Shown: positions 3,208 to 26,509 of the stretch, piece after piece
Position numbering within the stretch: position 1 is the stretch's first letter
How the letters are laid out: each line of letters starts with the position of its first letter
DNA from: Owenia fusiformis
Lineage: Eukaryota > Annelida > Polychaeta > Sabellida > Oweniidae
Assembly (NCBI GenBank): GCA_903813345.2
Contig: CAIIXF020000002.1
Span: 25,248,455 to 25,312,454, forward strand
Reading direction: 5' to 3'
DNA length: 64,000 bases
Program-made: the position numbers and the translations under genes
Notes under the pieces: generated by a model
What the model saw: only the letters and a program-made list of their open reading frames with translations
Databases searched by the model: none
Told to the model about the DNA's origin: nothing

Positions 3208-6200
3208 CTGAAAAGCAAATGGACGCACATGGGTGGCTAAGCTGTACTGTGTCTGCAAGCTGGTGAATGTGTGAATGAATCGAAAGTTAGTGCCATTTAG
3301 TACAGATTAGAGCATGCGTAAAGTTTATAGGAAAATTTGGAGTTAAAGCCACTATAGCCATATTATGCTGTAAGTGAACTTAAGTATTCATCACAATATT
3401 GTTATTTATTTGAGCAAGGTGGAATGATATTAGTGTTAGTTGTGTAATCAAGAAAACATAATAGGCCCTTTTAATAAATCCCGTCGCCATTTGGTACATC
3501 AAAGAAGATATATTATATTGCTGATATTGATGATGTCATAGGGAGTTTTTTCAATATAAGCAATAAGTAAATGTAACCTACATTCACCTACATTCGTTGC
3601 CTTTTCGATGTACCAAAATGAGGTAGGGCGCCCATTGTATGCCAAATAACGTGCAAAATCATTAGCTTCATTCTGCTTATGACTAAGCTTGTTCGGAAAA
3701 CATTCGATTGTAGTTTCATATGCTTTATATGTAACAAAGATATGGTGTTCATTCACAACTATGAACACATGTTTAATAGGAGTAGGTCAACGTGTTGCAA
3801 TTTTGAAACCGTATATAAGATGCCCATGCTATTCAAAATCAAAATCAAAATTATTCAACTTCAAAATCAAATGCACATAGGTACTTGGACATAGCAAACT
3901 AAAATAAGCTGCCGTATGTCAGGCGTTTTATTCAGATTTCGTGAGCCTTTTCACAACACTATAGGGTTTTGATGAAACACAGTTTCTTTAAGGTTTCATG
4001 TCAACAGAGTTATGTTTTGACCTTTCCGTCAGTTTGACTAGTTCCACATATCATTATGACCCCAACCATGATGAAATTGTTTTTCAGCCCTGTGAAAATG
4101 TAACAATAAGTTGTACTTTTGGAAAGGTCACCAAACAGAATGTTTTGAATTTTTCAGAATATATATATATTGTTTCAAATGATAGGCGCTTGAAAATTTG
4201 AATTCAATCCTAGAAAAAAAACTGATTTAAAAAGTGATCTTTTTTCCTTTTTAAGATTGCCATCTTTGTGACAATCTTTCATATTTTCAAGCTTCATTTC
4301 ATTTAAACCAATACATTTTGGAAAATTAAGAATATTCTCCTCAGTTTTCTTTCCGAAAGTACAACTTTTAACTATTTTCAGTCACAACTTCAGCGAGCTG
4401 AGAAAAGCTATTTCACCATGTTTAGGGTCATTCTGACCATGTCAATTGTGATCCTGGTCATGCAAATGATATATGGAAATAGTAAAAATGACTTAAGATC
4501 AAAACAAGACTCAGTAATCACAGTTAAAGCCAGTGGACTGTTAGACCTCCTGTTAATAACTTTGAGACCTTGAATAAAAAGAGAAATATCAGTAATTACT
4601 GTCTTAGATACTTACACAACATTTGACCTAATCCTGCCAAACATATATTAATGAATTCAATTCATAATTGTAATATCATACGGTATATATACCCATATAA
4701 ACTAATAATATAAATAATATAGGACAGGGAGCATGAATCAAGAATTTAAAAACAATCAAATGATGTATTATTCTGTACATGTATAATGTTAATTCAACAG
4801 AGTATTAGCATTGAAACTAGGAAAGTAATTTGCTATTCATTTGACTTGTATGCATTGCTATATTATAGGCATACCCATGCAAATTCATGTAGAATTTAAG
4901 GTATAGTGGATGCTATTACGACATTCTTAATATTTTTGTACGTCATGCTTTATCAGTAGCTGCTGCACTTTAGCTTAGTCTACATATCACTGTGTAAGTT
5001 AATGTATCGATTTGTGCAATTAATTGTTTGATGGTAGTATGAACTACAAGATGGACTATCAAAATGTGTTGTTCATTAAACACATTGATTTGTACAAGCT
5101 TGCCATTTTGGAAGATTTTATGAAACATGATCAGTCTTATTTCACAGTATGATATCATTTCTGCTCCCCATGTGCTGGCACACTAATGCTGCCTTTTTGT
5201 TTTTCGACCCTGCCGGAAGTCATTGGAGTTCACAAACAAGCTTATTTTAGGACAGTGGACTGCTTCTTATCTACTAAGACAAGAGTACAACGACCAGTTT
5301 TATTCATTCAACATCTACTAAAAAAACAGAACCACGGAACCATCGGTTTACCCATTCAGTATTGACAAAAGCATCAGTATATAACGATTGGTTTTATCCG
5401 TTCAGTATCTACTAAAAAACAGAACCACGGAACCATCGGTTTACCCATTCAGTATTGACAAAAGCATCAGTATATAGCGATTGGTTTTATCCGTTCAGTA
5501 TCTACTAAACTGATATAAGGATATGACGATCGCTTATTTGCTTCAGTTTCATGATCGGTTTTATAGGTTCACTTCACTAAAACAATTGAGTCAAGCCAAC
5601 AAGTTACGAATATGTTGTTGGGTTCTAATACACATTAGAAGGGATATATCGAATAAGGGTATAAGAACACTACAGAATTTTGCCAGTTGTAAAGTCGATT
5701 GAATATAATGCTTTCATGAATAAAGGAAAAGTTTGAAAAGTTTGAAAGTTTGAAGTAAAATGGGGAATTGATCTTTACAAAAAATCAATATAGTTTTAAT
5801 TTTGAGTTCCTTGACGTTTAAGTACTGGGTATGTAAAGCATTGCACATCAATGAACATTTGTTGACCATTGTTGTTATTAGAGTATGTTATAATCTTGTC
5901 TTAGGCGAAGCATCGAAGCAGTGTGATGGCGTGATCGTAAGTACTGCAGTATGTGCAAAGCTTCAACTAGTGAGAGTGCAGTAATGCTTCAGCCCTGGGT
6001 ACACTATATTTGTGCTTGGAAATGCCGAAAGAAACCAATATGACAAATCACATGCAAACATATGTCCCTTTTAAATCAATGACAACCTTACTTCACATTT
6101 TTTGGCTGTTATAATAAAAGTGTTCCCAGGACCGCGCGCCACGGATAAAGCACAACATATAGTAAGAATATATGCACAAAAAGTATAGAAAACAAAGAGG

Positions 6201-9200: not shown

Positions 9201-12200
9201 AATGAATTAACCGCTGAATTCAAAATGACACAGATGTGCGACAGTAACATTATTATTTTAAATTTGTATAAAATCACAGTCTTCATTTATATTCTATTCT
9301 TCTATTCTAGCATATTCGAATTACAATACATGATCTCAAAGACTGACATTGATACCCAAGTCCACGGCTATTTTACATTATATTCTTGGTTGAACTATTA
9401 TAAATATTATCGTATATTAGGCTCCTAGGTTTCTCTTTTACTTCATTGTATAATTTATATACACATAACAATACTCATGCATGTTGATATATATATTACA
9501 CCAAACCTTTAACCAAAATCAGACATGTTATCACATAAATTATTAATCAAAATTGAAACGAAGACATGATCTTAAAAAGTGAGATGCACGTATTTTCATT
9601 TGATTTGACAATGATAACATGTCTCAGTAAAATACAAAACTGTAGTAACACTGATTACAAAGCATCAAACTATCCCCATCATTATTCATAATTGTTGATA
9701 TTTGTTTATTGCTTTTTCAAGCATATAAATGAGATAAGGCAGTAAATTTATGTGTAGAGAGGGTTATATAGATGGATCTAAATAGCTAATATGAAGATTA
9801 TATACATTTATCAACTATTTCTCAAACAACCATAATATATTGAACTCTAGTTTTAATTGTTTTCAATTGTTTATATGTCGATATGTGTAAAGTATTTTTC
9901 TTGGTTAATATTCATATATTAATATTGCTAAACGAAACTAGGTATGCCTACCCGTATGCTCTGCCATTTGTTGCGCTTCTGTTTTTTGGTGCACTGGCAC
10001 ATACGTGTTTTGAACCACACGAGAATGTACCATATTGTTTTTGGAGTCGGGATGATGTTGAATGGTGGTGGCACAGTACCTCCTTCTTCAAAGTAACTCA
10101 TCCATAACTTTGATCTGGCGAATTTCCACTCTGTATCCGCTTGGTCCTGTATTGAAAATCATAAAACGATGTGTTTGATTTATTACCATAACCATACCAT
10201 AACATCACAAAAATAAATTTAACTAGATATCAATACAACTGACATTATCTCAGAAGTACGGTTGAATTCGACAAATACATGTTAAATAAATGACAATTGG
10301 CTCGATGCTTGATTAACAAGTACATGCTGTTTAGTAAACTGGTTTTCATGCGCTTGGATGACAACCTGGATGAGAACATATTATCCTTATATATTTTTGA
10401 GGTTTAGAAGATGGGGATTATCCGGTGGCCTATGGGTCAATATAATACATATGTATATTTACTGGAGGGCCAGAAGTCCCAGGGTGATATGATTTATATT
10501 GACCAAGGAATAATCCTAATTTCCTGGACCGACTTTAAGATAATATGCTAATCCTACACTATTTATTCTTTGAACAGTAATTTATAGTTAACATATCCGG
10601 GCGTCTGAAAATTCTAGCATGATGTTTTGATTTTCACGAAACCTTATTATTAAAATTTGTTTTGTCCAAAATTCAACATTCGATTTCCCTCTCCCGCTCA
10701 GTCGGGACGTAAAGCTTGTTCTACCAGCTGTTGAAAATACAGTTTACAAACCTGCCGTTAATACCTCAGCCACTTCAAAGTATGGGTTGACTACTGCTAT
10801 TTAATGACTGAAGCACAAAACTGTTACTATGCTTGCATATTTTAACATTGAACTTCAATCAGTGAAGGCATTTCTGTCAACGAACATTCAGTAGAGTAGC
10901 ATATTTGCAGTATTACCATTGCATAAGCTGACCAATATACTGTACGTCATATAATCAAGGAATTCAAGTTATTAGTATACCCAGTAACCATATATCTAGG
11001 GTTCAGATATAATATATAGTATAATCTAGTTTAATCAGTACATACATTTACAAACTATAGCCATGTGAAAGGTATTGCTTTCTTTCTAACTTATTTCGCT
11101 ACACTACCGCACCTTTCACAGACGTATTTGAACAAACGAATACCAAATATTGCATCTAAAATAGATGAGTAAACTGCAAGAGGGTTGCATAAGCGTGCAA
11201 TAAAACTGATTAATGCCTTGGTCACATTTGATCCGATTCATCGGCCGGCACCCGGCCGATTGAGTATTCTCTTCAAAACTGGATACTCAATCGGCCGGGC
11301 GTCGGGAGCAAATGTGACCCAGGCATTACATGACTAAAAACGTAGACATATATTTAGTACAATCCTCCAAGATTATGAAAAGTAGACCTATCTCCAGTTA
11401 TAGAAACATGCACTTTACACAAAATGGTGTTTGTGCCGATGTCCTGCACATGGGCATTTACATGTGTGTGTGTGTGTGTGTTTATATGTAATGTCATACA
11501 AGCTGTGTCTAAATAGTGAGCCATATACACTGTTATGCATTCAGTAAGCATGTATATGAAGCTGTTTATACACATGTCTGAATACAGTAATGGTACTGGG
11601 CAAAGCGGCAACTGACTGTGCAACCAATTGACGTACAATTAGGCTAATCCTAGTGTGTTTTATGATCAAATACAAAGACATGGTCATATATTTTAGACAT
11701 TCATGTAAGTTGAAGGGAAATCTAAATCAAAAATCATTTTGATATATTTGATATAGATACCATATACCGTATCATCATCACGACTCTTTAATTAAAATGT
11801 ATAACCATATTACTATACTATACTATACTATAGTTATACATTCTTACAGTATTATCTGAAAATTAAATTTCAGTATTTACTATATTTTTTCAGTTATCGC
11901 TCTACATTTCTTGACATTATGTATATCGTTTTACAATAAAACTAGTTTTTAAAACATATGACCATGGTGCCTGACTAAATACCAGTTTGTGAAGCAATTG
12001 AGACTAAAAGAAGGCGGCTAAGGTGAAGGTCCGACAGATCCAAACAATCTGATTGTTAAGCAGAATCAAACAACCACCATCATACGTACCACTATAGAGT
12101 GGTAGCTATTGGACATCATTGCGATTAGCATGTTGAGTAAAACCACTATGGCAATTGCACTGTAAACTCCAAACATTAACTTCCCTAGCAGTTGGGTGAA

Positions 12201-15200
12201 TTCGTGCTTTTCTTGCAGTGCAAAATGTTCCAAGTCAACCAAACCGTATATGGCCCAATACAATGTCTGTATAATTTGAAATAGGCTGAAAGTAAACAAA
12301 TAAAAATAAGCGAATTAATGCGTGACGATATATATGTGACCTACCGTTATATGGTTGTAGGAATTTGACATCATCGATATCAGCATACTTAGAAGAACAA
12401 CGATAGCAATGGCGCTATAAACGCCAAACATCAGCTTCCCCAACAGTTCAGTGAATACATGTTCTTCCTGTAGCTCGAAATGCTCAAGGTCTATAAGCCC
12501 GTATATTGCCCAATAAAGTGTCTGCATAATTTCAAATAAGCTGGAAAGAAACACGTAAAGCGTCAAACACAATGCAATAACAGGTGCAGGTACTAACTTT
12601 GCTATGAAAAGTGGTACGACAAGTGTCACAAACAGTGGTTTTGGATGCAAGATGGACGCACATATTGAGGGTGTTACAGAAAGTGGGTGGCAAGAAATAT
12701 TCTTTTAAACTTGTACATAAAAGTTGCACAGCAACGCAACTACAATTGATAGTTCCAAGAGAGAAATGTTTAAACCGATGTTTTACAGAACTCCGGCTTT
12801 TATATTTAAAGACAATAATTGAAGCCCATTACAGAAAAATTAGATAATGTTAAATAGAAAATGGCGCAGCATTTTAACTTCTTCTGGTAATCCCCAGAAT
12901 ACAATGTTTACTCTTACATTTTTCAGAACTATGGCTTTTTCAATGTATGGCAATTGAATCCATTAAAATCAGATTCAATAATTGACGTGTTTGCAGGAGA
13001 ATTTGATTTTAAATGCTTTTACAATCGATTTGATTAACTCTGCTTTCTGACTAAAATCAAAACTGTATTATTGTTTCATGAAAGTGATATCATTTATGTT
13101 TCCTGAATAAATTCATTAGGGAGTTAGTGTGTGTTGTATGTTAGTATAAGAAGTGATATGATATATGATATAACGATCGTAGCCAAGTATGTTTTTAGTA
13201 TTTCGTCTGTAAAATGCCTTAACATGACATAACATCCTATTCCAAGATCGGCTTTACAAAGTAGAATATTGATTAGTGATAATAGTAAAGACTAGATTGT
13301 AACTATTTTCAAACACCAGAGGTAAAGCAGATACGAGATTTGTTTGAAATAAGATGTGCATCTTGTAACAAGTAAAATATTTCCAAGAACATGTAAAATG
13401 TAGGCTATAAAAGGGTGATTTATGATACCGAAGCCACAGTACCGGATTGAAAGACGCTTTTTTCACAGCAGTCCAGCGCCAAAATGAGGAACAATTGGTG
13501 GTCATGTTCTCCACGTTTGTCAAGATAATTCAAAAAAATATATTTATACGTTAAAATAATGTCCATATAATGTAAAAGAGATTACTCTGTATTCGTAGAT
13601 ATATGTTGAATCGTTGACCAGTTGTATTTTAGTTGTAACAGTAGCAGCATTTTGATTTTCACTTTCAAAGCTGCCAAGGTAAATTGACTGTATACATTTG
13701 AATATGAAAACGGGAGTAATCTCTTCGTGACAGATTATCTTTAAATATCTGGAATTTTCGGTTTTCCCTATAAACGGGTCGGTTGCAATCCAGTGGCTAG
13801 TGCTTCGAAATCATAAATCACCGTGATATGACAATGTACGTGTTACATTCAATACACCCTTTTGCCCCACTGGCTGAAACAGAAAAAGATTCCGCGCAGG
13901 AAACCCATTTTGGATATTCAAGGCCCATTTTTGATAATCTGGCCTAAAAGACCCAGAAGGCCAAGTTATTCCCAAAAAAAACTAATAATTGAGGCCCTAC
14001 AAAATGCTTCGACCCAAATATTTATCCCCATAGTTTCATTACATTTGGTAGTGTACATTGTGCCAAACTTACCCAAATTTTCCTATATTTAAACTCTCTG
14101 TATTTTACTAACCAACCGCTACTCTCAAATCCAATAGAGGTTGTCATTTTTGAATCTAGATATGTGCTGGGTATCTGGGGCAAGTGCATGAGATATATAT
14201 TACGCATGCGGGATAAGCAAAGAGCGTTGATATTTTACATTAGCACGGGCATATATACCTAATATACATTTAATATGTTTACACACATATTATTAAAATT
14301 ACTTCATAAAAATGTAGATCAAATTTTAGAATATGTACAAGTAAAAGTATTAGGTATTTCTAATGGGTATTTTGAGACATATCTCATCAAGGTAATAAAT
14401 CCATTCAAAGATAATAAAGTTATTTAATACTTACTCTAATAAAGCTTTATACTTTTGATCAATACACATTTGCTTTTGTATATTTTCTGGTTGCTGACAT
14501 TCGTCTTGTCTAGTGACGCTATAATACCAGTAAAGTTGGTTGATCCCACATGCAAATGCAAATAACACCAGAGTAAATACGAATGCAAACTTCAATATGT
14601 CGACCACCATTCGTCCAAGCGATATTTGCAATGGCCCAAGATGTGGGTTAACTGTGAAAATGTATATGAGTTTAAGTGAACTGAATATATTTGCTGTGGC
14701 AAATAGTCCCTCTGCTATTAGGTTTGGATCATAGGCATCCCATTCCTTGCGAGGTAGATTAGCTGTTTCTAGACCAATTGCTTTCTCTTGTTCTACCTGG
14801 AATATGAAAAGTATGGGATTAAGATTAAAAGTGTAAATAAATTGTTAGCTGTCTCAGTATATGATGCTTTTCTTATAAAGCAACTCCGGGAAGCCACATA
14901 CTTGAGTTGTTGTCCATGGTATTAAAATCATTTATTTTCCCAAGTTGAATAAACGATATATTATATAATAAAGGTATAAAGGCACTTTGTAAAAGTTGAG
15001 AAATATTTCAATATTCACATGTTATACTGGATAATACAAGGGCCGATCAAAAAGTTTCTTACCGTTGGCTCTAGATTTTATAATAAGAGGAGTTGGATGC
15101 TCAAACTTTTACATAAGACAGGGTAGTAAGTTTGCTTGAGACTGTCTGAGTTTCATTTAAATTGGTTCATTGGTAGTGACACAGAGTCAATACGTATTTT

Positions 15201-18200
15201 CAATGATTGAATTAGGTGGAGCAGCGTTTTTTTGTAAAAAATTGTGCTAAGCTGCAGTTTTGGAAATTTCTAACACTAAGTAGTGTCATCTGTCAACAGA
15301 CTGTAGTTTAATCATGTTTAATTAGTTTTTCTGCTAATATTCATTCTCATTCAAAATATTCAACCCCAGTTGCCATGCACAATTCCTATATCTGTCCACT
15401 CGATCCAAAAACACATGTTTAAGGCCTTTCGTATGAGAGGTTTGAAAGAATGTCGGTAAATTTCCAGAACCACAACTCAGCAGATATTTTATATATAACG
15501 CTGCTCCACCTAACTTTGTCATTGAAAATATGAATTGATTTTGTGTCACTACCAATAAACCAATTTATATGAAACTCGTACAGTTTCAAGCAAACTGACT
15601 ATCCTGTCTCAAGTTAAAGTTTGAGCTTCCAACTCCTCTTATTATAAAATTGAGAGCCAACGGTAAGAAACTTTTTGATCGGCCCTTGTATTAAGATATT
15701 TGCAGTTATCACTGAGCACTATAAAACGCACAAATACAGATTGAACATTTACTATGTTTGTATCAGAAGTCTAGACCCTATATTTGTCCTGAAACTTGAC
15801 ACGTTAATGCAGAAACATGAAGTTGTCTTTGAATTTTTCCAAATGTATTTGTTTTGTATTTGATTCATTGCAACCTTAAGCGAGAATGCTTTTATCAGTT
15901 ATGTTTGAATGTTTAACCTAATTTTGTTTATAGATTTATTTGAAACTGAAGCATCCATTGGTAGGCTATTAAAAATAATTGTATATATTATGACTTTTAT
16001 TATGAAAAAATGTACAATGATGTATCATAATATTTCCTTTTTACATCAGTGTGGTAAGTTTTATGACAAGATTTTCATTTTTCTAGATTAAGATACAAAC
16101 AGTCATAACCTTTAAGAACGACCTACGTTGTATATATGCTAACGTATTGGATCGATAATGTGACAACAACAAATTAATACCATGTGTAATATATACATAT
16201 AAAAACAACGTCCACGTGTGAGATGCATTATGAATTTTCCTATGAAACACATCCTAAATAATTCAGTGTAACGGGTTTATTACTACAGATTGGGGCAATA
16301 AATCTGATCAAACAGTCGTGACTAAGGGGTTCTATCATGAACTGCAATTCAACTACTGCAAAATCACAAGATTCTGATCAATGCTATGAACTCGCAAGAT
16401 GTTCCCTAAATATAAAAAGCGTTGGTGGTTGTTTCAAAACGTGTTGTAAAGCCTAATTTGCTAACATATAGGTTGAACTTAATTGGAAAACAATGTACAA
16501 CAATTGATGATCATAGTTTTTGTATTTGTTATGCCTTAACGTATCTGAGTATACCATTATTTTGAAACTAAGTTCATCCCATTTTTTTGTCAAAATGGTA
16601 TTATGTTAAGCAAATGCTGTCTACTAGTCAAATAGAATACACACGGGTACGTCCCACCAATTTATATGAGAAACGTTGAAATATGCTGCTAACTCTTGAG
16701 CGCGTTCTTGTTGCACCTATAAATTCAAATTTCTTTCAAAGTCTAATCCAACTTATATTATTCAATTTTAATAGCATATGTCCATATAGTTATTCATTAT
16801 AACCCATGCATGTGTGTAAAATTGATATAATATGTCGTACAGGAAAATTAATCTTATCGATCAAAAAATAAAAATGAAGTGTCAAAATGTTTGAACTGGT
16901 ATTGTACAAATTGGGTATGACAAAGACGCCAAAATAAGTCACTTGTATGTTTGGACACTAGGTCTATAAATACTATTAATACACTATCCACTATTGTATC
17001 GCAATGAATAGATTACATTGAAACTTGCTAAGCAATAAATCTCATTAAAAATAGATGGCACAATTTGATGAAAATCATCGCTCATAATTCTTACTAAGAA
17101 AGTTACACGAATATTAATACAATACTTACATTCACGATCAAACATTTTATAAACAGAGTATTGGATGAATTCACAGAATATGTAATACCTTAGTATTGAA
17201 CATTAAACATATACATAAATATAAATAAGCTTCCTATTGATTAGTAAATCTAACATCGTTAGTCAATATTTTGCATTAAGATTGATTACTTCATTTTTTT
17301 TAAATGTATAATCTATTCTAAAATGTACCTTGATATATGCAACAGCTCTCAATGCTATAGTTGCGAGATAGAGAGAGTTTGTAATGAAATCCAGTATGTT
17401 CCACATATCATGGATATATGCCCTGGCCCCCTCGTCCCACAGTTGCTTGACCTCGGCCCATATCAGTCCTAAAATGTAACATATTCACTGTTATTACTTT
17501 GAAATAATTTGTAATATAATCATAATATATATTATCTGTTCAATCTGATAATATGTACCTATACATTTTTTTTGGGGGGGGGGGGCTAGTGACTAGTGAG
17601 ACTAGTTTTGGGAGACATACTCATTTTTTCAGTATTGTACTGAATAAAGGCACTGAATTCCCTAAGATGGTTGACTGAGACACATTGGCATGTTTGAATT
17701 GAATATTATGTAATGCGCTATATATTCACATAAGTTGTTCTAGAACACATATTAATCATGAACATTCACAGGCACTTTGGACTGTCAGAATATTCTGTTT
17801 AATATAGAAAGTCAAATGAATTAAAGAATAATTTCCGTTTTGAATGAAGGCTGAAGTATTTATACTAATTAATTTTCAAAGAGTTATTCTGGTTGAAAAA
17901 TATTGACTCGAAATCCTATTCAATATGAAAGAGTGTATTAACCAGAAATAAAATTGCAATGTATCCTTTGATGTTAATTAAACATAGGGAATAAGTGGAT
18001 AATTGGGTATATATCACCGCTAATAGCTCCAATAGTATTATATCTCTGTTTAATAGGCATCTCAAGTGATCGTCAATACACTATGGATTGCCTATTCAAT
18101 ACAAAGTCCACAATTATGTTGAACAGCAATTCTGCGTTTTCTTATTAGCGCAAATCTTCATAATATGAATACTTTCCCCTTCTGTTCATTTTATTTACAG

Positions 18201-21200
18201 GTACATGGTTTGCCGATGAACACTTACCCTTTCTGCTTATTTTATTTACAGGTATGTGTGGCTGGGCTATAAATTCTTAGCTTTTCTGTTCATTTAGTTC
18301 ATAAGTCTATAATTTGGCTTCATAAGAATGGTTAATGTACAATCAGAACTTACATGTCTTAAACACTAATATAGCCTTGTATGTGTCTATAAAACCCCAC
18401 AAATAACCATGTTTATAATTCAAATAATTATGTCGGTCAAATCATGATGTTGACACCGGAAGTAGAAAAATGTGTATTTAGAAGCTTCTCCGACCTATAC
18501 TCAGCTCTAATATATAGTAATAAGACTCTTCTCGGTTATAAGGGTGTGGCTTTACCTGCTACATAGGCCATTATGATCCATTCGATAACAGTAGGTGGAG
18601 CACCCCTTATTTCACTTTTCATGCGATCCGTATCCATCATTAGAGTAAGACTCGCAATTCTCTGGGACGCTAATATCAAAAATCCTGAAAGAATACAAGG
18701 TATTATATCAATACAAATATTCCAAAATCTGAATTATTCAGTTACATTCAATTTGAAGTATATGGTTAATAAGAATATTCAAATCAAACTTGGGAGGTTC
18801 GGGTACACGGAAAATGTGGCATGGTTTACTGGATTTGTCAATCTTTTATTTCTATGGTGAGAAATGGCAACATGTTTTGCGGGATACAACTGGTAATTGA
18901 TTCTCATTTTAGAATGGTCGGGAAATTACTATGGATATAATATTTCAAACCTCTCAGTAGACTTAAAATATGAATTCAAAAGTTTCTTTTGTCAATGACA
19001 TAATATGGTCGATTCACTCTAAAACATAGCGAAATAATTTTATAGGCCACTGCTTTTATCCCTGAAACAATAAACCAATAGGATGCGTAACCTAACCTCT
19101 CTTTCATTTATTTAATTAGAAATCCTACCTAGGAAAGACATGTAGGATGCACTATGACAAATAAACTTGATGAAGGGTCTTCGTATAAGTCGCCCAAAAC
19201 ACCCCTTGGGTGCCATGATGTAGAGCAATGATAAGAATGGGAAATTAAACGCAACGACCATCGTGCAGATTAATTTGAATGCAGTCGGACGTCTCCTGAA
19301 TCCTGGTAATCCTTCATACCACAGAGATGCCAAAAGCTGCTGGCAATTAGGATGCGATACAAACTGCAATAAAAGGTTGAAATTACATTTCATTAAAGTG
19401 AGATACATTCTCAAACCTGCGTTGAGATCTATATTATTTTGTTTCATCACTATGACGGTGTTTGGAACATCGAGTTTGGTGTTACTCTCATTGATTTCTG
19501 ATATGTTTATTACATACAAGGTCTCGGGAGATAACGCTGTGTCACATACCTTTTTTTGTTTAAATTTGATAGCAAGTTTAAGTCGTGACAAGGCCATGTG
19601 GTCACTATCTGCATTAGCAGGGCCATCTGTATCGTGGTTGAGAATAATTTTCAGCTCTGCTGATCCACGTGTTTGATCCAGAAGAGCTACTGCAAATTCT
19701 TGGCATTTCTTAGAGAGCGTTTCGTAATCATCTTTAAACTCATTTTCAAAACGGCTCAACCGTTTCAACTCCCAACTCAACTCAAACGTGGTCAGTATCG
19801 GGTCCTTGCTAGAAAGTGCGACTAGAGAAGGGCTGGCTAAGGCACGATAAGCGTTGATCCTAGACCGGGAATGGTTGAGGCTGTCTTCTTCGGAGCTTTT
19901 CTTACAATCTTTACAACTGCACCTGACATCATGTGGTTTCGGTATCACCTCCCCACGGTCCAAGAGTATCTTAATGATTTCATAGTTATCCCTGTGTGCA
20001 GCCAAAATTATTGGAGTTATATCTGGCGTAAATGAACTGGATGGAGTACCACCAAGAAAGCCCTAGTGAAATAGAATATAACATCATCTAGATAAGTGAG
20101 AACAAAATGCAAACAACGATAGCTTTTGCATAGAAAAGATATACAGATATGTAAAAGTAGCTAGTTTAAAACGAAACATGAAAATATCTAAAAATGTCAG
20201 TTATTTGGTTACAAAGACAAAGGCCTGGGTTGTAATTGTAAAACTGTTAAACAATGAAACGTTAAACAACTTTTAATTAATAAAAGAGTGTTCAAATTTT
20301 ATTATTGAAAGGTGTCTGACAAGGTGTTTCATGAGGGAATTTAACTAAGTTCCTTCCTCGACATTTCGTACAGATTGCCTCGGTTAAATAAAAATAATCT
20401 ATTCTTCAGAAAACTTTGGTGAAATTGTATGTAAATATTTCAAGAGAACAATGGTTGACCGCAATAATGCAGGAACAATTTTACTCGAAGTAATAAATGA
20501 ACGTTTGATTAGCTTGTATTACGGATGTTATACTTAATTCGTGATCATGAAGAACAACTTGATTAATGTCATCAAAATGATTAATGTGTTTGAAATTGAC
20601 ATGCATATAACCCTTATTCTATTTTACAAGCATACATCACTGCAAAGGAGCTCGATAGGAGTTTATTTGAATTGTTAGTCCTGTAAAGTAAGTGCCATGG
20701 CAACGAATTAAAGGGATGATGTAGATTCATGAGAAAATACATATCCAACGATAATAACAAGGCAACAGCAAAAGAATGTAGGAAATAGCATTGAGTATCG
20801 TATTGTACACAGTCCATCAATATATATGTGCAATATTGTTATTAGGACACTAACAATTTCTTTAGATGTTTGTGAACATAATTGCCTTATTTTTCATCAA
20901 AATAGTTCATTCAAGCATTGCAAAGGTGCACTGAAGAATATCCATTCATAAATTTCAAGCAGTTGTGTTCTGAGATGCAAAGATGATTCAAAATCTAGAA
21001 TTCGTCATGTTGAATAATATTGTTATTATAATCTGGTGTTATCAAGATCTTGTCATGTCTCGCATGTTGATTTCGGGCATGTAACAGTACATGCAAATAG
21101 TACAAAAACATATAGTTCCATATAGATATACTAATGCATCAAGAGAATTTTAATACAACACTACTAGACTGCAGATAGGATCAAAGTTGTAAAATTGTTA

Positions 21201-24200
21201 CTTGTGTTAACAATGGTCATGTGATCAGGTATCTACATATATTTCACGAACATGTACATGACATTTATCACTCTTGCGAAACCGGTAACATTAGTTAAGA
21301 GCACTGATTAATAATAAGACCATGTGATAGCAAGCCTAAAAGTAGAAACTTCAATCTAATGTTCTCAGTAAATCACAGTACTACCCTGTGCTCAAATGGA
21401 TATTCAATGTATTACCAGTTTAGCAGAAGTGATGAATATACCCACCTCGCTATCAATCAATGGTTGTGGTGTTGGGATGGGAACGACCTATCATACAATA
21501 AAATGTTACGACGTGTATATAAATGTATTTATAGATGCATTTATTTATGAATATCCTTATACACTGTCATCATACAAACAATCATAAAATGGCACACACA
21601 ATACTTAATCTACAAGGGGTCTACTCTGGGTAACACATATTAACTAATCTGACATAGATGCAGTATTCTATCAGTTGGTTAATTCGAGTCTGATGCGTAA
21701 TAGCATGGATCATATATATATTTACACCTGTTAGATATTATTTCCTGCCTAAGCATTAATGACTGAGTAGAAAACGTATTACTTATGATATGTATTTCAA
21801 GTGTTTCTAAAATAACATAATATACATTTTTACGTAGGTGTTTGATTGATCATGATATCTCGGGTAAAACTATGATTTACGCAGTCCACGCTAGTATTTC
21901 TTATATGAAAGCAATATCTCATATTCAAGCAATGTGAGCACTGATTCACTCCCCATTAGCGTGATACATTAGCTAATCAAAATTATTTATCATTATGAAT
22001 AGATTTTCAGTGTTGAAATAAAAAATGTCCCGTCACATTAGCTTCACATTACAATTAAACTTATTTTTGGGTTGTCTTCAAATTTTTATATTTCATACAT
22101 GTCGTGTCAGATAATTGCTATTTACAAGAAGGTAATTTCATTGACTTGAGAAAAACCTATTAAATATATCTTAACAATGTGAATGAAAAAAATGAAGTAA
22201 CAATTTGTAACAAGTTGCTTTTGTCTTGCCAATAGGATGAATTAATTTTGTATCCATACGATGTTAACAAGTACTTTAATATGTGCCGTTATATATTAGT
22301 GTCTGTAAAATGATTCACACTGACAGAAAGTTTATATTCTTTGTTACGATATAAATCTTTCATATTTTTGGTATACTACGTGACAATAATGAGCAGGCAT
22401 ATAGACACTACATAATTATTAAGATGCTTGAATTTTGCACTCAATATATGTAATAAGAAACATTTTCACCTATATAAAAATACAAAGTCTGAGTTCAGAG
22501 CATAATCATATATGAAGATGCAAGTTTCAAAATCCTAAGATTATTATACATACAGTGTGTCCAAAAACAGGACCAAAAAGTTGATTAACTAGGTCAATCT
22601 CACATATTCTGCCCTGATATATCCATATCAAACGATTGATGATAATCTGCCTATTTTGTCAAAAAGTACAGTACCTTACAAAACATGCCCCAATCGCCCC
22701 CCCCCCTCACTCTTCATATTCAATTGTACATAAAATTGTGCATGGAATTTCAAGGCAGAATACGTCAAATTGACAGATTTAATCAATCTTTTCTTCGGTC
22801 CTGTTTTAGACACCCTGTGCATTTGTAAAACACACAACAAAAAGGCGAACAAAAAACGCCTCAGATCAAATCAATCCAGTCAAAATACTTGCCTCGTCGT
22901 CTTCGCTGATTACCTGAAGACAACAGATAAAGCACATAAGGTGATGTCTGCTACAAATGCACATAATCATTCCATATACAAGTAGAATAACAGTTGACAG
23001 TCAGAAGTAAGCGATACTGTTCAGAATGTGGGGTGTACACGTGGCCTTGTACGCAGGTACGCACATAATCATTCCATATACAAGTAGTATAACAGTTGAC
23101 AGTCAGAAGTAAGCGATACTGTTCAGAATGTGAGGTGTACACGTGGCCTTGTACGCAGGTACGCACATAATCATTCCATATACAAGTAGTATAACAGTTG
23201 ACAGTCAGAAGTAAGCGATACTGTTCAGAATGTGGGGTGTACACGTGGCCTTGTACGCAGGTACAGAATACTACTTAGAATGAAGTTTAGCAGAATATGC
23301 ACTACAATGCATGGTTTAAGTGAACATAGTTCAGGATTTTACAAATGGATGAGATAAAGCAGTGCATACCAAACATTGTAATGCGAAATATACTGCAATA
23401 TATAGTTTAATACATCATTAGTGCATATCAAGGTATAGTTGCTAATACAAAGAATAGCATAAATATGAAAGAGTATATGCATAGTATATCAATGAATAGT
23501 ATACCCCCATTTTGCATTTTATTTCACGTATTTCCACGTATTGAATGGAACAGTATCATAAAAGAGTTCGTGAGCGTTATGGTAATGCTGGATATGGTTT
23601 CGAATACTATTCATGCATAGTAATATAATAATATAAAAAGAACAATCGATGCAGTTCATGGAACATATTTAGTCATCACACTGTATATAGAACATCGTAT
23701 CAATAAATAAGTAATATAGTAAAAAGCATACTGTAAGTATAATATATATAAAGCAAAATGATAAGCATGTACCATATACAATACAATGCAGTGGCGTATT
23801 AGATAAATAGGTCGCCTTTCATTACTACATAATCATATAAATAAAATGAATAGGAGGAAGCGAAAAACAGAAGTAAACATTAAGGTATTCACGATCCAAT
23901 TTTCCTTTCAATAGAAGCAAGTTATATATTACAATACTAGAGTAAAGCTAAAGCATTTTCTATAGGCCTTATAATCAGCATCATCAATTACTTTGCGTAT
24001 AAAACATTCAATATTACAATACATAGATATAAACACAAACAACAATCGATATTGACATAGGTGTACAAGCTAGGTAATGGACGAAAACATAAAAATGCTT
24101 TATCGATAAAATTAACCAGAAACCCAATACTAAAATAAAGAAATAAAAGATTACTCGAAAAAACATAATATAAATTTCAATCATCTTAGGATGTCTCGAT

Positions 24201-26477
24201 GTTGTTTTTTTCATTTTTGATTGTATCTTTATATCTTTTGGACTGTACATTCTGTCAACCAGCTTATTTCTCTTTTGCAACCAATGTACTCATTGCATAC
24301 TGTTCCATAAAGCACAGGATGTTAAAAATCAAAAGGCCCAAGGGACTGAGCTCCATCAACATCAAGTCTATTGATACCGGCATTTTGACAACTCATTATA
24401 GAGCTGGAACTCATGTAGGAATAACTCGGATCGGAAATAATTAACACTGGGATAGCTCAAGATTAGGGCATTTTGTATTAACTCATTGTGGAATAATTTG
24501 TACTTGGGGCAGTTGATCAGAAAACGTATTCTAGTAAGTTCATAGGGAATTATCGATAAAACATGCTACTATATTTTATATAAATGTATACATGTGCAAT
24601 TTAAGTTTAGATTATTCATATTCAGTAAGCTCTAATTTTAGTAACTCATATTCCGGGAACTGACATAATTGTGATGCATATGACAACTATACCCAATACA
24701 GGGACAGCTCATGTATACATGATGCATACACATGTATGCAGTCTTTAACGAACAAATCCCTCGATGAGCATTTAGTTGAATATCAGCTGTCGAAGATGCA
24801 AAGGAATGAAAGTTCAATCCACAGGTGATTTATTCTCTTATCGACTTTTTCCCTGGTTATTAATTCTTTCCGGAAAAAGATCAATATCCAAGTTCTATTG
24901 GTTTGCCTTTTGCAGTGCTGCGTATTCAATTAAACATGGAATATATCATCCTAGTTGATGATTCGCATATAATGATTATAAGTTCATTGAACAATTACGT
25001 ATTCAGTTAATATAATGATTAAGGTTCAAAGTTGTCCTTGTGGGATTAATAATGAATGTTATTATCTACGGCTTTTTCACTTTGTTATAGTTGAGCTCTA
25101 ATATGAATCAAGATATACGTAGTTATATACTAATGGTGTAACAAAGTAAGACTGTGCTAATCTTATGTTTTTGTGAATAACAAGTTATGGATTTAGAAAT
25201 GTAGTATTAGTATTAAAAATGCCAGTTAGAACTGAACACGGTGGCCAACATATAAGGAAACCAAATAAACACTTTACCTAGTATATATGTATACATAACA
25301 TCAAATAAAAACCCCATCGTTGTGGAAATCCCTATAAGATTTTAAACTTCAAAAAGTGCACAAAGCCCATATCATCAGCCGATAGCGAATAAAAGCGTTC
25401 TAGAACTTTATAGTGCGTTACCTAATTAAGTTTTGACAATTTTATAGTTATGAGGTTGAGATAGTTAATGGACAGCTTTTGAAAAAGTTTGCGCAACTGG
25501 CACTGACAGAATTAAAAATAATCTGGTATTAAAGGATAAAAGTGTTGGTAAATTTGACTGTATATAAAAAGACATGTGATTTCCTTTTGTTATTAACGAT
25601 GTAGTTGCGAATTCCCATAATTGTAATTAACCGAAATACCTCACTTATACAAATTATACTTAAGTCGATTATCGGTTTCACGATGTCTTTGTCACGAATT
25701 TGTTCATGATACTGCGTTATTAGTGTAGCTTATTTGCAATATCTGCTGTGTGTATAGAGCATCAACTATTTTTCCTGTTGCATGTTATCCAGCTGTGTAA
25801 TTAAATACATCACCTTTGAAAGGTAATAGAAACGACTACTCTAGTTGCCACTATTAACGTATGCATCAACAATGCAATTCATTTTATATTTGAGACTACC
25901 TCACGTTATCGGTATCAGATTCTAATATATCATGAGAAATAGGAGTTGTACAATGGGGAAATTAAATTGAATAACATGGTGACAACAAGGCGGACGTATA
26001 CCTTAATTCAAATTAGTCATAAATTCATAATTTCTATAATGTAAGCTTAGTTACCGATAAATCTTTTTTTCTGTGGGTTTGATGGCTGAGTATGAGCTCC
26101 ACAGCTTCAACGTTTTCCTCATTTATCGCATGTAAAAGTGCATCACCTAGTTCAACATTGTACTGCAACAACAGCTCGATCATTTCAATGTTCTCATTTT
26201 CAATGGCGATCAGAATTCCCGTACGACCAAGCGGGTCAACACAGTTTATATTAAGATTAAAATAAATCTGAGCTTCGTCGAGATAATTTTTAACGGTTGC
26301 CATATCACCACGTTCTATTGCAAGAAGGTACTGTTTCTCTTCATTATTTAGGTCTATTTCCTTGCGCACAACGCCCATGCCCAGCGTCTCGCCATCTGAG
26401 ACGTCTATCCCGAGTTCATCCATTAGGACCTGGGGATTCAACTGGGCCTGTTTGTATTTCCGGTACACCTTATCCAT
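2591..26477 (-). CDS. TRPC: TRPC-family cation channel gene, whole coding span (11 core exons plus alternatives)
   Basis: Encodes a six-transmembrane, receptor-operated, calcium-permeable cation channel subunit of the plasma membrane; TRPC subunits act as tetramers downstream of phospholipase C. Exons joined on the minus strand: 26477-26055, 20062-19550, 19363-19129, 18684-18556, 17468-17329, 14796-14435, then 12540-12345 or 12285-12090, 10146-9952, 8918-8877 and/or 8741-8700, 7892-7700, 3207-2591. With one pore exon and one microexon the total is 3045 nt, or 1014 residues plus stop, close to the 970-odd residues of vertebrate TRPC4/5. Layout: ankyrin repeats about 45-175, TRP_2 segment about 176-240, pre-S1 elbow 340-363, S1 about 375-396, S2 420-440, S3 455-478, S4 508-527, S5 541-565, pore 602-622, S6 639-660, TRP box EWKFAR 672-677, PPPFN near 692. 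All junctions are GT..AG and phase-compatible. Family assignment is firm. Orthology to one vertebrate subtype is not settled, since features of both TRPC4/5 and fly TRPL/TRP-gamma are present. Confidence 0.95.
4039..4484. mobile_element. Inverted-repeat element (about 446 bp) in the last TRPC intron
   Basis: The left arm (AGTTCCACATATCATTATGA, later GATGAAATTGTTTTTCAGCC) is a diverged inverse of the right arm (GGTCATGCAAATGATATATG and the upstream GCTGAGAAAAGCTATTTCAC). The right arm recurs near 58784-58940, so the unit is dispersed. No coding capacity. Confidence 0.6.
5300..5512. repeat. 93-bp tandem duplication, two units
   Basis: AACAGAACCACGGAACCATC begins at 5325 and again at 5418. The two units, through GATTGGTTTTATCCGTTCAG, differ by only a few bases, so the duplication is young. 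Confidence 0.85.
6856..6861 (-). terminator. Candidate poly(A) signal for the short TRPC isoform
   Basis: A minus-strand AATAAA about 780 nt after the alternative stop at 7638. It would allow the short C-terminal form to end within the 4.5-kb last intron. Chance occurrence is quite possible. Confidence 0.25.
7638..7892 (-). CDS. TRPC: TRPC exon 10: conserved C-terminal segment, with alternative short end
   Basis: The acceptor is TTTCAG at 7894-7893. It encodes [15 protein letters not shown], then [17 protein letters not shown] and RYELLEIL, the conserved C-terminal block of TRPL/TRPC4/5 proteins. In the long form the exon ends at 7700 with donor GGCA|GTAAGC, phase 1, and joins 3207 to give Ser810. 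If that donor is ignored, translation continues 20 residues ([11 protein letters not shown]... ending RKFIF) to a double TGA at 7640-7635, making an 829-residue protein with a strongly basic end. Both ends are readable from the sequence; which is used in vivo is not known. Confidence 0.9.
   Translation of the reverse strand: MVMRDLIKRYIMQQQRGMQTEGVTEDDLNEIKQDISAFRYELLEILRNNGMKTPTYSKNQPGKGSKHFGHKGRSGHKKSRKFIF
8700..8741 (-). CDS. TRPC: TRPC microexon, version B (42 nt)
   Basis: Encodes [14 protein letters not shown], 14 residues, phase 0 at both ends. The acceptor is TTGCAG at 8743-8742, after a pyrimidine-rich tract, and the donor CAG|GTACGT at 8699-8698. It aligns without gaps to version A: hydrophobic residues at the same places, matching charges, and an identical YQ end. 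Use of A, B or both keeps the frame. Using both would lengthen the helical segment by 14 residues. The donor and acceptor are at least as good as those of version A. Confidence 0.83.
8877..8918 (-). CDS. TRPC: TRPC microexon, version A (42 nt)
   Basis: Encodes [14 protein letters not shown], residues 732-745, phase 0 at both ends. The acceptor is GTTACAG at 8920-8919 and the donor CAG|GTAAAC at 8876-8875. The KYQ end followed by [10 protein letters not shown] from the next exon matches the family pattern HYQEVIRNLVKRY. It is a charged, probably helical segment of the cytoplasmic C-terminus. A second 42-nt exon of the same design lies 135 nt downstream. Confidence 0.85.
8919..9951 (-). other. 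TRPC intron before the microexons
   Basis: About 1 kb of AT-rich sequence between the TRP-box exon and microexon A. I see no further microexon copy in it, though a 42-nt exon is easy to miss. Confidence 0.6.
9952..10146 (-). CDS. TRPC: TRPC exon 8: TRP box and proline-rich motif
   Basis: Residues 667-731, 195 nt, phase 0 at both ends. The acceptor is AATACAG at 10148-10147 and the donor CGG|GTAGGC at 9951-9950. It encodes [20 protein letters not shown], containing the TRP box EWKFAR just inside S6, then [16 protein letters not shown], the conserved proline motif. A basic, cysteine-containing stretch ([12 protein letters not shown]) follows. The donor is a modest match to consensus, but it is followed soon by a stop in frame. 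Confidence 0.92.
10147..12089 (-). other. TRPC intron between pore exon B and the TRP-box exon
   Basis: 1.9 kb. It contains the 119-bp palindromic element (11211-11329), a short TG repeat near 11464-11480 and an ACTAT repeat near 11815-11832. No third pore exon was found. Confidence 0.6.
11211..11329. mobile_element. Small palindromic element (119 bp) in a TRPC intron
   Basis: A near-perfect hairpin. TAATGCCTTGGTCACATTTG at the left matches, in inverse, CAAATGTGACCCAGGCATTA at the right, and CGGCCGATTGAGTAT pairs with ATACTCAATCGGCCG inside. Its ends resemble those of the 170-200-bp MITE family found at 30.7, 36.1, 50.5 and 51.6-52.1 kb, so it is probably a short relative. Confidence 0.75.
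12090..12285 (-). CDS. TRPC: TRPC pore/S6 exon, version B (downstream copy)
   Basis: 196 nt, residues 601-666, with the same phases as version A. The acceptor is ACTTTCAG at 12287-12286 and the donor GTG|GTACGT at 12089-12088. It encodes [16 protein letters not shown] (pore helix and filter, Asp618 kept), the linker [11 protein letters not shown], and the canonical S6 [13 protein letters not shown]. It differs from version A at 12 of 65 whole codons: 604, 606, 617, 623, 627, 629, 632, 652, 656, 663, 664 and 666. Only 59 nt separate it from version A, which favours use of one or the other per transcript. This version has the more conventional S6 and is probably the ancestral-type pore. Confidence 0.93.
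12286..12344 (-). promoter_or_regulatory. 59-nt spacer intron between the two pore exons
   Basis: It starts GTAGGT and ends TTTACTTTCAG. A plausible branch site, GCATTAAT, lies about 25-30 nt from the 5' splice site and is followed by a T-rich tract. At this length the 5' splice site and branch point crowd each other, a known way to prevent neighbouring alternative exons from being joined. Some invertebrates do splice introns of 55-60 nt, so steric exclusion is likely but not certain. Confidence 0.6.
12345..12540 (-). CDS. TRPC: TRPC pore/S6 exon, version A (upstream copy)
   Basis: 196 nt, residues 601-666. The acceptor is CTTTCCAG at 12542-12541 and the donor ACG|GTAGGT at 12344-12343. It encodes the pore helix (QTLYWAIYG), the filter region GLIDLEHF with Asp618, the pore-S6 linker [11 protein letters not shown], and S6. 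S6 here reads [13 protein letters not shown] instead of the near-universal LLNMLIAMM. It shares length, both phases and most of its protein with version B, yet many synonymous sites differ, so it is an old, selected duplicate and not an assembly artefact. The linker carries four acidic residues against two, plus a lysine, in version B. Confidence 0.93.
12541..14434 (-). other. TRPC intron upstream of pore exon A
   Basis: 1.9 kb of unique-looking AT-rich sequence between the S5 exon and pore exon A. I saw no additional copy of the YWAIYG pore-helix coding motif on either strand. Confidence 0.6.
14435..14796 (-). CDS. TRPC: TRPC exon 6: S3-S4 linker, S4, S5
   Basis: Residues 481-600 plus two bases of codon 601. 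The acceptor is ATTCCAG at 14798-14797 and the donor GA|GTAAGT at 14434-14433. It contains [22 protein letters not shown] (S4 region), then the invariant TRPC run [14 protein letters not shown] and S5 through [12 protein letters not shown]. The pore turret ([16 protein letters not shown]) follows and contains two cysteines that may pair, as in TRPC4/5. Either pore exon restores codon 601 as aspartate (GA+C). Confidence 0.95.
15035..15690. mobile_element. Mariner-like non-autonomous element with about 200-bp inverted ends
   Basis: The left end TACAAGGGCCGATCAAAAAG and the right end CTTTTTGATCGGCCCTTGTA are exact inverses. The inverted similarity continues inward for roughly 200 bp on each side (for example TTATAATAAGAGGAGTTGGA and GGTGGAGCAGCGTT, with their complements at the other end). 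The flanking dinucleotide is TA on both sides, as for Tc1/mariner insertions. About 650 bp in total. The centre has a 73-codon minus-strand frame (15555-15334) that may be a decayed piece of transposase, but it lacks any catalytic region. It sits in a TRPC intron, between the 66-nt cassette and the S4-S5 exon. Confidence 0.8.
16651..16716 (-). CDS. TRPC: Candidate TRPC cassette exon (66 nt) in the S3-S4 extracellular linker
   Basis: An open 22-codon segment flanked by an acceptor TTATAG (16718-16717) and a possible donor GAC|GTACCC (16650-16649), phase 0 at both ends. It would add 22 residues, starting [11 protein letters not shown] and ending INWWD, to the extracellular linker between S3 and S4. 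Its start resembles the start of the next constitutive exon ([12 protein letters not shown]), and both have a tryptophan-aspartate near the same distance. This suggests an old partial exon duplication. The donor is weak and conservation cannot be judged here, so it could be a chance open segment. Confidence 0.5.
17329..17468 (-). CDS. TRPC: TRPC exon 5: S2 end and S3
   Basis: Residues 434-480. The acceptor TTTTAG lies at 17470-17469 and the donor AAG|GTACAT at 17328-17327. It encodes [14 protein letters not shown], then [11 protein letters not shown] and [17 protein letters not shown], which match the S2-S3 linker and S3 of TRPC channels almost position for position. It ends in phase 0, so either the optional 66-nt exon or the next constitutive exon can follow in frame. 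Confidence 0.93.
17469..18555 (-). other. TRPC intron between the S2 exons
   Basis: 1.1 kb. It includes a T/G homopolymer stretch at about 17571-17586 and two near-identical 25-bp segments (ATTTTATTTACAGGTA) around 18185-18255, which resemble splice acceptors but have no open frame after them. Confidence 0.6.
18556..18684 (-). CDS. TRPC: TRPC exon 4: end of S1, S1-S2 loop, start of S2
   Basis: Residues 391-433. The acceptor TTTCAG lies at 18686-18685 and the donor GCAG|GTAAAG at 18555-18554; both junctions are phase 1. It encodes FLILASQR (S1 end), an extracellular loop, and [16 protein letters not shown], matching the conserved PPPTVVEW entry to S2 in TRPC4/5. The extracellular loop is slightly longer than in TRPC5. 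Confidence 0.9.
19129..19363 (-). CDS. TRPC: TRPC exon 3: pre-S1 elbow and start of S1
   Basis: Residues 313-390 plus the first base of 391. It opens [18 protein letters not shown], the standard TRPC sequence before the membrane region, followed by a hydrophobic elbow ([20 protein letters not shown]), the IAP-type turn MAPKG, and [16 protein letters not shown] at the start of S1. The donor AG|GTAGGA lies at 19128-19127, phase 1. Confidence 0.92.
19364..19549 (-). other. In-frame, stop-free 186-nt intron inside the TRPC N-terminal domain
   Basis: The intron begins GTATGT and ends after a pyrimidine-rich stretch at TTGCAG. It splits the family-conserved run KQKK / [11 protein letters not shown], which is continuous in other TRPCs, so splicing it out restores the family sequence. 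Its length is 62 codons and it has no stop. Retention would insert 62 unconserved residues (starting VCDTALSPE) just before the linker to the pre-S1 region without breaking the frame. The intron reading is well supported; that retention is used in the cell is inference only. Confidence 0.85.
19550..20062 (-). CDS. TRPC: TRPC exon 2: last ankyrin repeat and TRP_2 segment
   Basis: Residues 142-312, phase 0 at both ends. The acceptor is CACTAG at 20064-20063. The first residues, GFLGG..., lead into [13 protein letters not shown], which is highly conserved in TRPC proteins. The zinc-coordinating [11 protein letters not shown] stretch, the [19 protein letters not shown]_2 signature and the [15 protein letters not shown] region follow. 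The exon ends KFKQKK at an AAG|GTATGT donor (19549-19548). Translation stays open past this donor because the following 186-nt intron contains no stop. Confidence 0.92.
20063..26054 (-). other. First coding-region intron of TRPC (6.0 kb)
   Basis: Long AT-rich intron after the start-codon exon. It contains the 102-bp tandem repeat (22951-23263) and otherwise no recognisable exon or element. Long first introns often hold enhancers, but nothing specific can be pointed to here. Confidence 0.6.
22951..23263. repeat. 102-bp tandem repeat, three units
   Basis: CACATAATCATTCCATATAC starts at 22960, 23062 and 23164, exactly 102 bp apart, and the units are nearly identical. Because 102 is a multiple of three, a minus-strand frame stays open through all three, but the peptide resembles nothing known and the open frame is a by-product of the repeat. 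Confidence 0.9.
26055..26477 (-). CDS. TRPC: TRPC exon 1: start codon and N-terminal ankyrin repeats
   Basis: Residues 1-141. The ATG at 26477 is preceded in frame by a TGA, so it is the natural start. From about residue 45 the exon shows TRPC-typical ankyrin text, including [30 protein letters not shown] and GDALLHAI. The exon ends in phase 0 at a GTAACT donor (26054-26053). A CTTTCAG acceptor at 26511-26510 lies just upstream of the ATG. This suggests that 26509-26478 is 5' UTR of the same exon and that at least one untranslated exon lies further upstream on this strand. The ankyrin domain is cytoplasmic and contributes to tetramer assembly in the family. Confidence 0.93.
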
Positions 26478-26509
26478 GATGTCGGTGTGGGCGGTGGTTC
26501 AGTGACCCC

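Follow-up and report, generated by a model that had tools for sequence, protein, structure and literature searches.

Probably mutually exclusive pore exons in a TRPC gene of Owenia fusiformis, and a second pore-exon pair in a paralogue

We predict with considerable confidence that a TRPC channel gene of Owenia fusiformis carries two mutually exclusive exons for the pore and S6, referred to here as A and B. The gene lies on the reverse strand of a 64,000-nucleotide stretch of contig CAIIXF020000002.1 (the window, whose numbering is used unless another is named). A pore-exon pair is not unique to the window gene, as we newly find that a second TRPC gene of the same genome, gene X, also carries two frame-compatible pore exons. 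The first-pass annotation of the window proposed an exclusive pore switch through which mixed tetramers could grade conduction. Exclusive use remains the best reading of the frames and the spacer between the exons, but simple grading of conduction is less likely, given that the core filter is identical in the two copies.

Exon A (12345-12540) and exon B (12090-12285), both on the reverse strand, each encode 65 residues that run from the pore helix through the filter and outer mouth to the end of S6. Re-measurement reproduced the features that had been reported for them: both are 196 nt long, enter in phase 2 and leave in phase 0, begin with C plus a Leu codon and are closed by a GT donor, and they share 53 of 65 residues and are separated by a spacer of 59 nt with GT...AG ends (12286-12344). 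A pyrimidine-rich AG precedes each copy. The exons on either side, on the same strand, are presumed constitutive: an S4-S5 exon upstream (14435-14844, where the 5' limit is that of the open frame) and a TRP-box exon downstream (9953-10146, with its acceptor at 10146 and an approximate 3' end). The donor at 14435 supplies two bases of an Asp codon whose third base is the first of either copy, giving Asp-Leu, and both copies stop at a codon boundary from which the TRP box continues at 10146, so that the upstream donor and the downstream acceptor are compatible with either copy. When the joined frames were translated, A alone or B alone gave open frames of equal length reading into the TRP-box exon, while inclusion of both exons, or of neither, led to an early stop; the predicted break of frame in the A-B join is thus borne out. 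Retention of the spacer also introduces a stop, with the frame of A ending at 12315. A and B are therefore tandem homologous exons of equal length and phase, as expected of a mutually exclusive pair. We propose that the donor at 14435 would be spliced to one of the two copies, which in turn would be joined to 10146, and that any mRNA with both exons or with neither would carry a premature stop. No third pore copy in the window was returned by a whole-genome search (E ≤ 1), and relaxing the threshold to E ≤ 10 in a search of the window brought up further matches that were weak and unconvincing.

The window gene encodes ankyrin repeats, a TRP_2 domain, an ion-transport core and the TRP box EWKFAR, the combination that defines a TRPC channel. 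Further upstream on the reverse strand lie a probable S2-S3 exon, preceding S4 (17320-17481, limits from its match to gene X), an open frame with the TRP_2 domain (Pfam PF08344; frame limits 19112-20062, not exon limits) and an N-terminal ankyrin-repeat frame (frame limits 26034-26498). From their order and strand, we infer that these exons belong to one gene. Among solved structures, those of TRP-gamma, TRPC5 and TRPC4 come closest; A and B fit them about equally (best 65.1 bits for A and 64.6 for B), and the gene is a TRPC4/5/TRP-gamma-like channel. Against Pfam Ion_trans, B scores 27.1 bits, above the cut-off of 25, and A 22.8 bits, just below it. Between the TRP_2 and ankyrin frames, positions 22951-23274 hold an open frame of a repeated unit starting GHVYT(P/S), perhaps a minisatellite within an intron of the gene.

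The two copies appear to have been under coding constraint through much of their separate history. They are identical at 143 of 196 nucleotides, so that 53 bases but only 12 residues differ. Among the codons of the 53 shared residues, 27 differ and 26 are the same, and 11 of 16 comparable fourfold sites differ. Estimates of dN are 0.14-0.16, while dS is 1.68 by LWL85 and undefined by NG86, with silent sites near saturation. When 53 random changes were introduced, a stop arose in 84% of trials from A and 86% from B (20,000 trials each), and an identity of 53/65 was reached in 0 of the 40,000 neutral simulations, in which at most 40 (from A) or 41 (from B) residues remained identical. Divergence that is largely silent, coupled with the simulations, makes both copies look old and constrained; the earlier suggestion that the silent differences reflect long selection on both copies is backed by the codon counts, the simulations and the intact frames. 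Apart from the splice signals, the intron flanks of A and B are dissimilar; on this ground, and because 53 of the 196 bases differ, both a recent duplication and an assembly artefact were rejected. No orthologue of the window gene was found in contig searches of other species with exon B alone as query, and the age of the pair is accordingly read from the divergence of the two copies only.

The spacer is likely to hinder the joining of A to B sterically, judging from a donor-to-branch-point threshold of about 50 nt described in other organisms (PMC7969005, PMC5740500) and from branch points that are motif guesses. Candidate branch points (yTnAy) in the spacer place the adenine at 30, 38, 44 and 52 nt from the donor, and the last of these lies merely 7 nt from the acceptor. 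The probable branch point of B would thus lie within a very short distance of the donor of A, which would disfavour A-B joining. None of 58 intron lengths estimated in the genome from match ends is as short as the 59-nt spacer (median 319.5 nt, smallest 126 nt), although some of the underlying pairs share one open frame, including the 126-nt case (C1:57373615), and may not be introns. This background came from 80 of 92 myosin rows (65 of 210 candidates having been scored in the myosin search) and 58 of 60 CCT rows. Pairs were kept if less than 10 kb apart with profile ends ranging from 15 overlapping to 12 missing positions (n = 58), and 12 tandem myosin copies on C9 and two CCT rows (C8:24993385 and C11:135225) were left out. 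Introns of about 60 nt are spliced in some animals. The idea that a short spacer blocks joining is therefore strengthened by the intron background but falls short of proof. The frame argument holds by itself, independent of any steric block. A Dscam-like competing RNA structure received no support within 12080-12560, the pair and its immediate flanks, which fold no better than shuffled sequences (z = -0.21). The motifs TGCATG, GCATG, CTAAC, TTAGG and TCATC do not occur in 12940-11691.

The myosin copies on C9 are an observation in their own right. At least 12 tandem matches to positions 18-84 of the myosin motor profile lie on one strand at C9:37986009-37994334, two of them with an internal stop, and by sequence the array looks like a large set of alternative exons. 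Clusters of mutually exclusive exons have been reported in muscle myosin genes (PMC3912159).

Gene X came out of the whole-genome search, which yielded 13 matches with E ≤ 1; two of these fall within one TRPC gene on C2 (30.69-30.71 Mb), at a distance of 1.7 kb from each other. Its exons XA (C2:30702466-30702658, 193 nt) and XB (C2:30704186-30704384, 199 nt) have the phases of A and B and lie between a single S4-S5 exon (last base 30700384) and a single TRP-box exon (30705962). XA alone or XB alone keeps the frame open, whereas both or none put it out of frame; joint inclusion and joint skipping are thus non-productive in both genes. XA and XB share 30 of 64 residues and differ in their filters (FGL versus FSI). 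They are separated by 1,527 nt, which makes a steric block implausible in gene X. Incompatibility of U2 and U12 splice sites was set aside as an explanation for exclusivity on the terminal dinucleotides, all four pore exons having GT donors and AG acceptors. No further convincing pore copy was present in the 20 kb read around gene X, and the other TRPC-type pore exons that were read, on C3, C6, C2 near 16.95 Mb (two) and C1 near 6.29 Mb, each occur once in the genome search.

Outside the genome, searches with exon B as query gave 107 pattern matches in genome contigs, one of which was a relative, and 5 pattern matches but no relative in viral contigs. The relative, L013 (JANQKJ010000211.1), is filed as a gammaproteobacterial MAG but encodes an animal-type TRPC that resembles gene X more closely than it does the window gene; we take the contig to be animal because its TRPC gene has introns. 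A decayed partial pore copy lies at 2346-2426, with Asp in place of the S6 asparagine, and 3372-3416 hold a second fragment of the TRP box. In pore-exon trees, A and B group apart from all other sequences with a support of 98, although the alignment is short and gene conversion could mimic this grouping. The duplication of A and B therefore looks independent of that in gene X, and a shared origin of the two pairs is unsupported. In a tree of 15 sequences, XA, XB and L013 group with a support of 30, and XB and L013 with 68. The branch of A is longer than that of B, at 0.16 versus 0.09 in this tree and 0.19 versus 0.05 in another. The 15 sequences are a selected set comprising 10 of the 13 genome matches, four sequences from structures and L013, with the decayed copy of L013 not among them. 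The structure table names the molecules, and the species labels h, zf and Dm on the structure sequences are ones we presume to be right.

The residues that distinguish A from B fall above all in S6, and otherwise in the pore helix and outer mouth. In a structure alignment, position n of the pore exon corresponds to TRPC5 residue n+567. Given as A/B with the TRPC5 residue in parentheses, the differences are E/Q at position 3 (E570), M/I at 5 (L572), I/V at 16 (L583), E/A at 22 (N589), E/K at 26 (R593), V/E at 28 (E595), E/Q at 31 (E598), S/N at 51 (N618), S/A at 55 (A622), N/H at 62 (Q629), H/S at 63 (L630) and T/V at 65. By eye, A is the closer copy to TRP-gamma at positions 3, 16 and 22, and also to TRPC4 at the first two of these. 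The core filter WAIYGL is common to both copies, followed by I or V and then D. Within residues 15-31, A has 6 acids and no Lys or Arg, compared to 4 acids and 1 Lys in B, making the outer mouth of A more acidic. B has the canonical S6 motif LNMLIAMM. Among the 15 sequences, Asn occupies the N618 position and Ala the A622 position in 14 each, with Ser at both in A only. On this alignment A appears to be the odd copy at the gate, and B canonical there.

Several of these positions have assigned roles in TRPC5. L583 has been assigned to the L2 lipid site, E543 and E595 to the binding of protons and lanthanides, and I621, N625 and Q629 to the lower gate, while the asparagine N618, at the conserved pi-bulge of S6, is reported to change orientation in gating simulations (PMC11362415). 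E598 has been linked to a putative englerin-A site (PMC7017149). The structure alignment places Ser at the E543 position of the window gene, and the E595 position is variable (Glu in 4 of 15 sequences), which means that the cation site known from TRPC5 is already modified rather than simply present or absent. With a shared core filter and differences in the pore helix, mouth and S6, exon choice is likelier to act as a gating or modulation switch than as a simple grading of conduction. Inclusion of B would give a canonical S6, and inclusion of A the same core filter with a more acidic outer mouth and Ser at the N618 and A622 positions. Channels built from A, from B or from a mixture should differ in gating and in modulation by protons, lanthanides or Ca, and A channels may perhaps differ in whether opening occurs at all.

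One version of the exclusive-cassette reading, which we consider unlikely but worth weighing, is that A subunits are made and are dominant-negative or gating-locked in mixed tetramers. The S6 asparagine and alanine are altered in A alone, and the matching asparagine, mobile in the TRPC5 simulations (PMC11362415), is reported as essential in TRPV1, where its replacement by Ala abolished function (PMC3707783). However, A has Ser rather than Ala at this position, and its further changes could compensate. Less probable still, at perhaps a slim chance, is that B alone enters the channel protein and A is an old duplicate losing function that is rarely or never spliced. The faster evolution of A, its Ion_trans score under the cut-off and its loss of two S6 residues also fit a weakening copy, the TRPV1 result points the same way, and L013, a relative of gene X, provides an example of a pore copy that has decayed. 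Yet A has no stop or shift, retains its pyrimidine-rich acceptor and GT donor, and keeps its residue identity with B across a large silent distance; it is whole and dissimilar to the partial fragment in L013. It is very improbable that the pair serves as a productivity switch in which some cells splice A to B and nonsense-mediated decay of the frameshifted product leaves less channel, since, although a stop follows shortly after A in such a join and joining reads are documented for part of human out-of-frame exon pairs, a spacer well under every intron estimated in the genome should make joining inefficient, and a decay switch offers no reason for A to persist as a coding sequence of its own.

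Swapping of pore or S6 exons is already known from NALCN and Cav3, which appear to be the nearest parallels to mutually exclusive use of A and B. NALCN exons 15a/15b and 31a/31b are described as tandem mutually exclusive exons with conserved junctions that span pore helices and filter, with 15a/15b also including the start of S6; their authors treat the two events as separate, in different domains (PMC3557258). As reported there, however, NALCN has four domains per chain and the swap alters the filter from E to K, whereas the window gene encodes a TRPC subunit, tetrameric by family, in which the outer mouth and S6 gate change and the core filter does not. An alternative selectivity filter of the NALCN type is thus not found in A and B, which share WAIYGL. 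Exons 12a/12b of Lymnaea Cav3 are likewise pore-adjacent and change permeation, but are placed in the loop from S5 to the pore helix of one domain, rather than from pore helix to S6 (PMC9694082). Splicing in the TRPC family has been described outside the pore, with skipping of Trpc3 exon 9 in the CIRB region (PMC10834251), a 9-nt variant of Pieris TRP-gamma in the TRP domain (PMC7143563) and exons 2/3 of Bactrocera TRPL, which are called mutually exclusive but encode 18-21 N-terminal residues (PMC6137742). Alternative pore exons in a TRPC gene were not found in the literature searched by title and abstract opening, in which few subscription papers were covered. The spacer has a parallel in OGDH exons 4a/4b, where a short intervening intron is reported to place branch points below the steric distance; OGDH is an enzyme, however, and in birds and mammals its intron measures 118-131 nt and has mapped distant branch points (PMC7969005), compared to a 59-nt spacer and motif-based branch points in the window gene.

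If both exons are used, one gene probably yields two channels with different pores. That a paralogue carries another such pair suggests a preference for the phase-2/phase-0 pore exon as the place where changes of this kind arise. We offer more tentatively, and regard as somewhat doubtful, the combined proposal that TRPC pore/S6 exons duplicated independently in the two paralogues and that the window module without the S6 asparagine tunes or silences mixed tetramers according to the splice ratio. The S6 asparagine at the pi-bulge is described as central in some TRP gating models (PMC11362415). If the exclusive-cassette reading is true, a gene able to supply its channel with or without this asparagine through exon choice would amount to a natural experiment on gating and mixed tetramers, and the window module would provide a naturally occurring TRP subunit whose gate differs at a position where the asparagine otherwise looks obligatory in TRP channels. 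TRPC would then join the channels known to swap pore exons.
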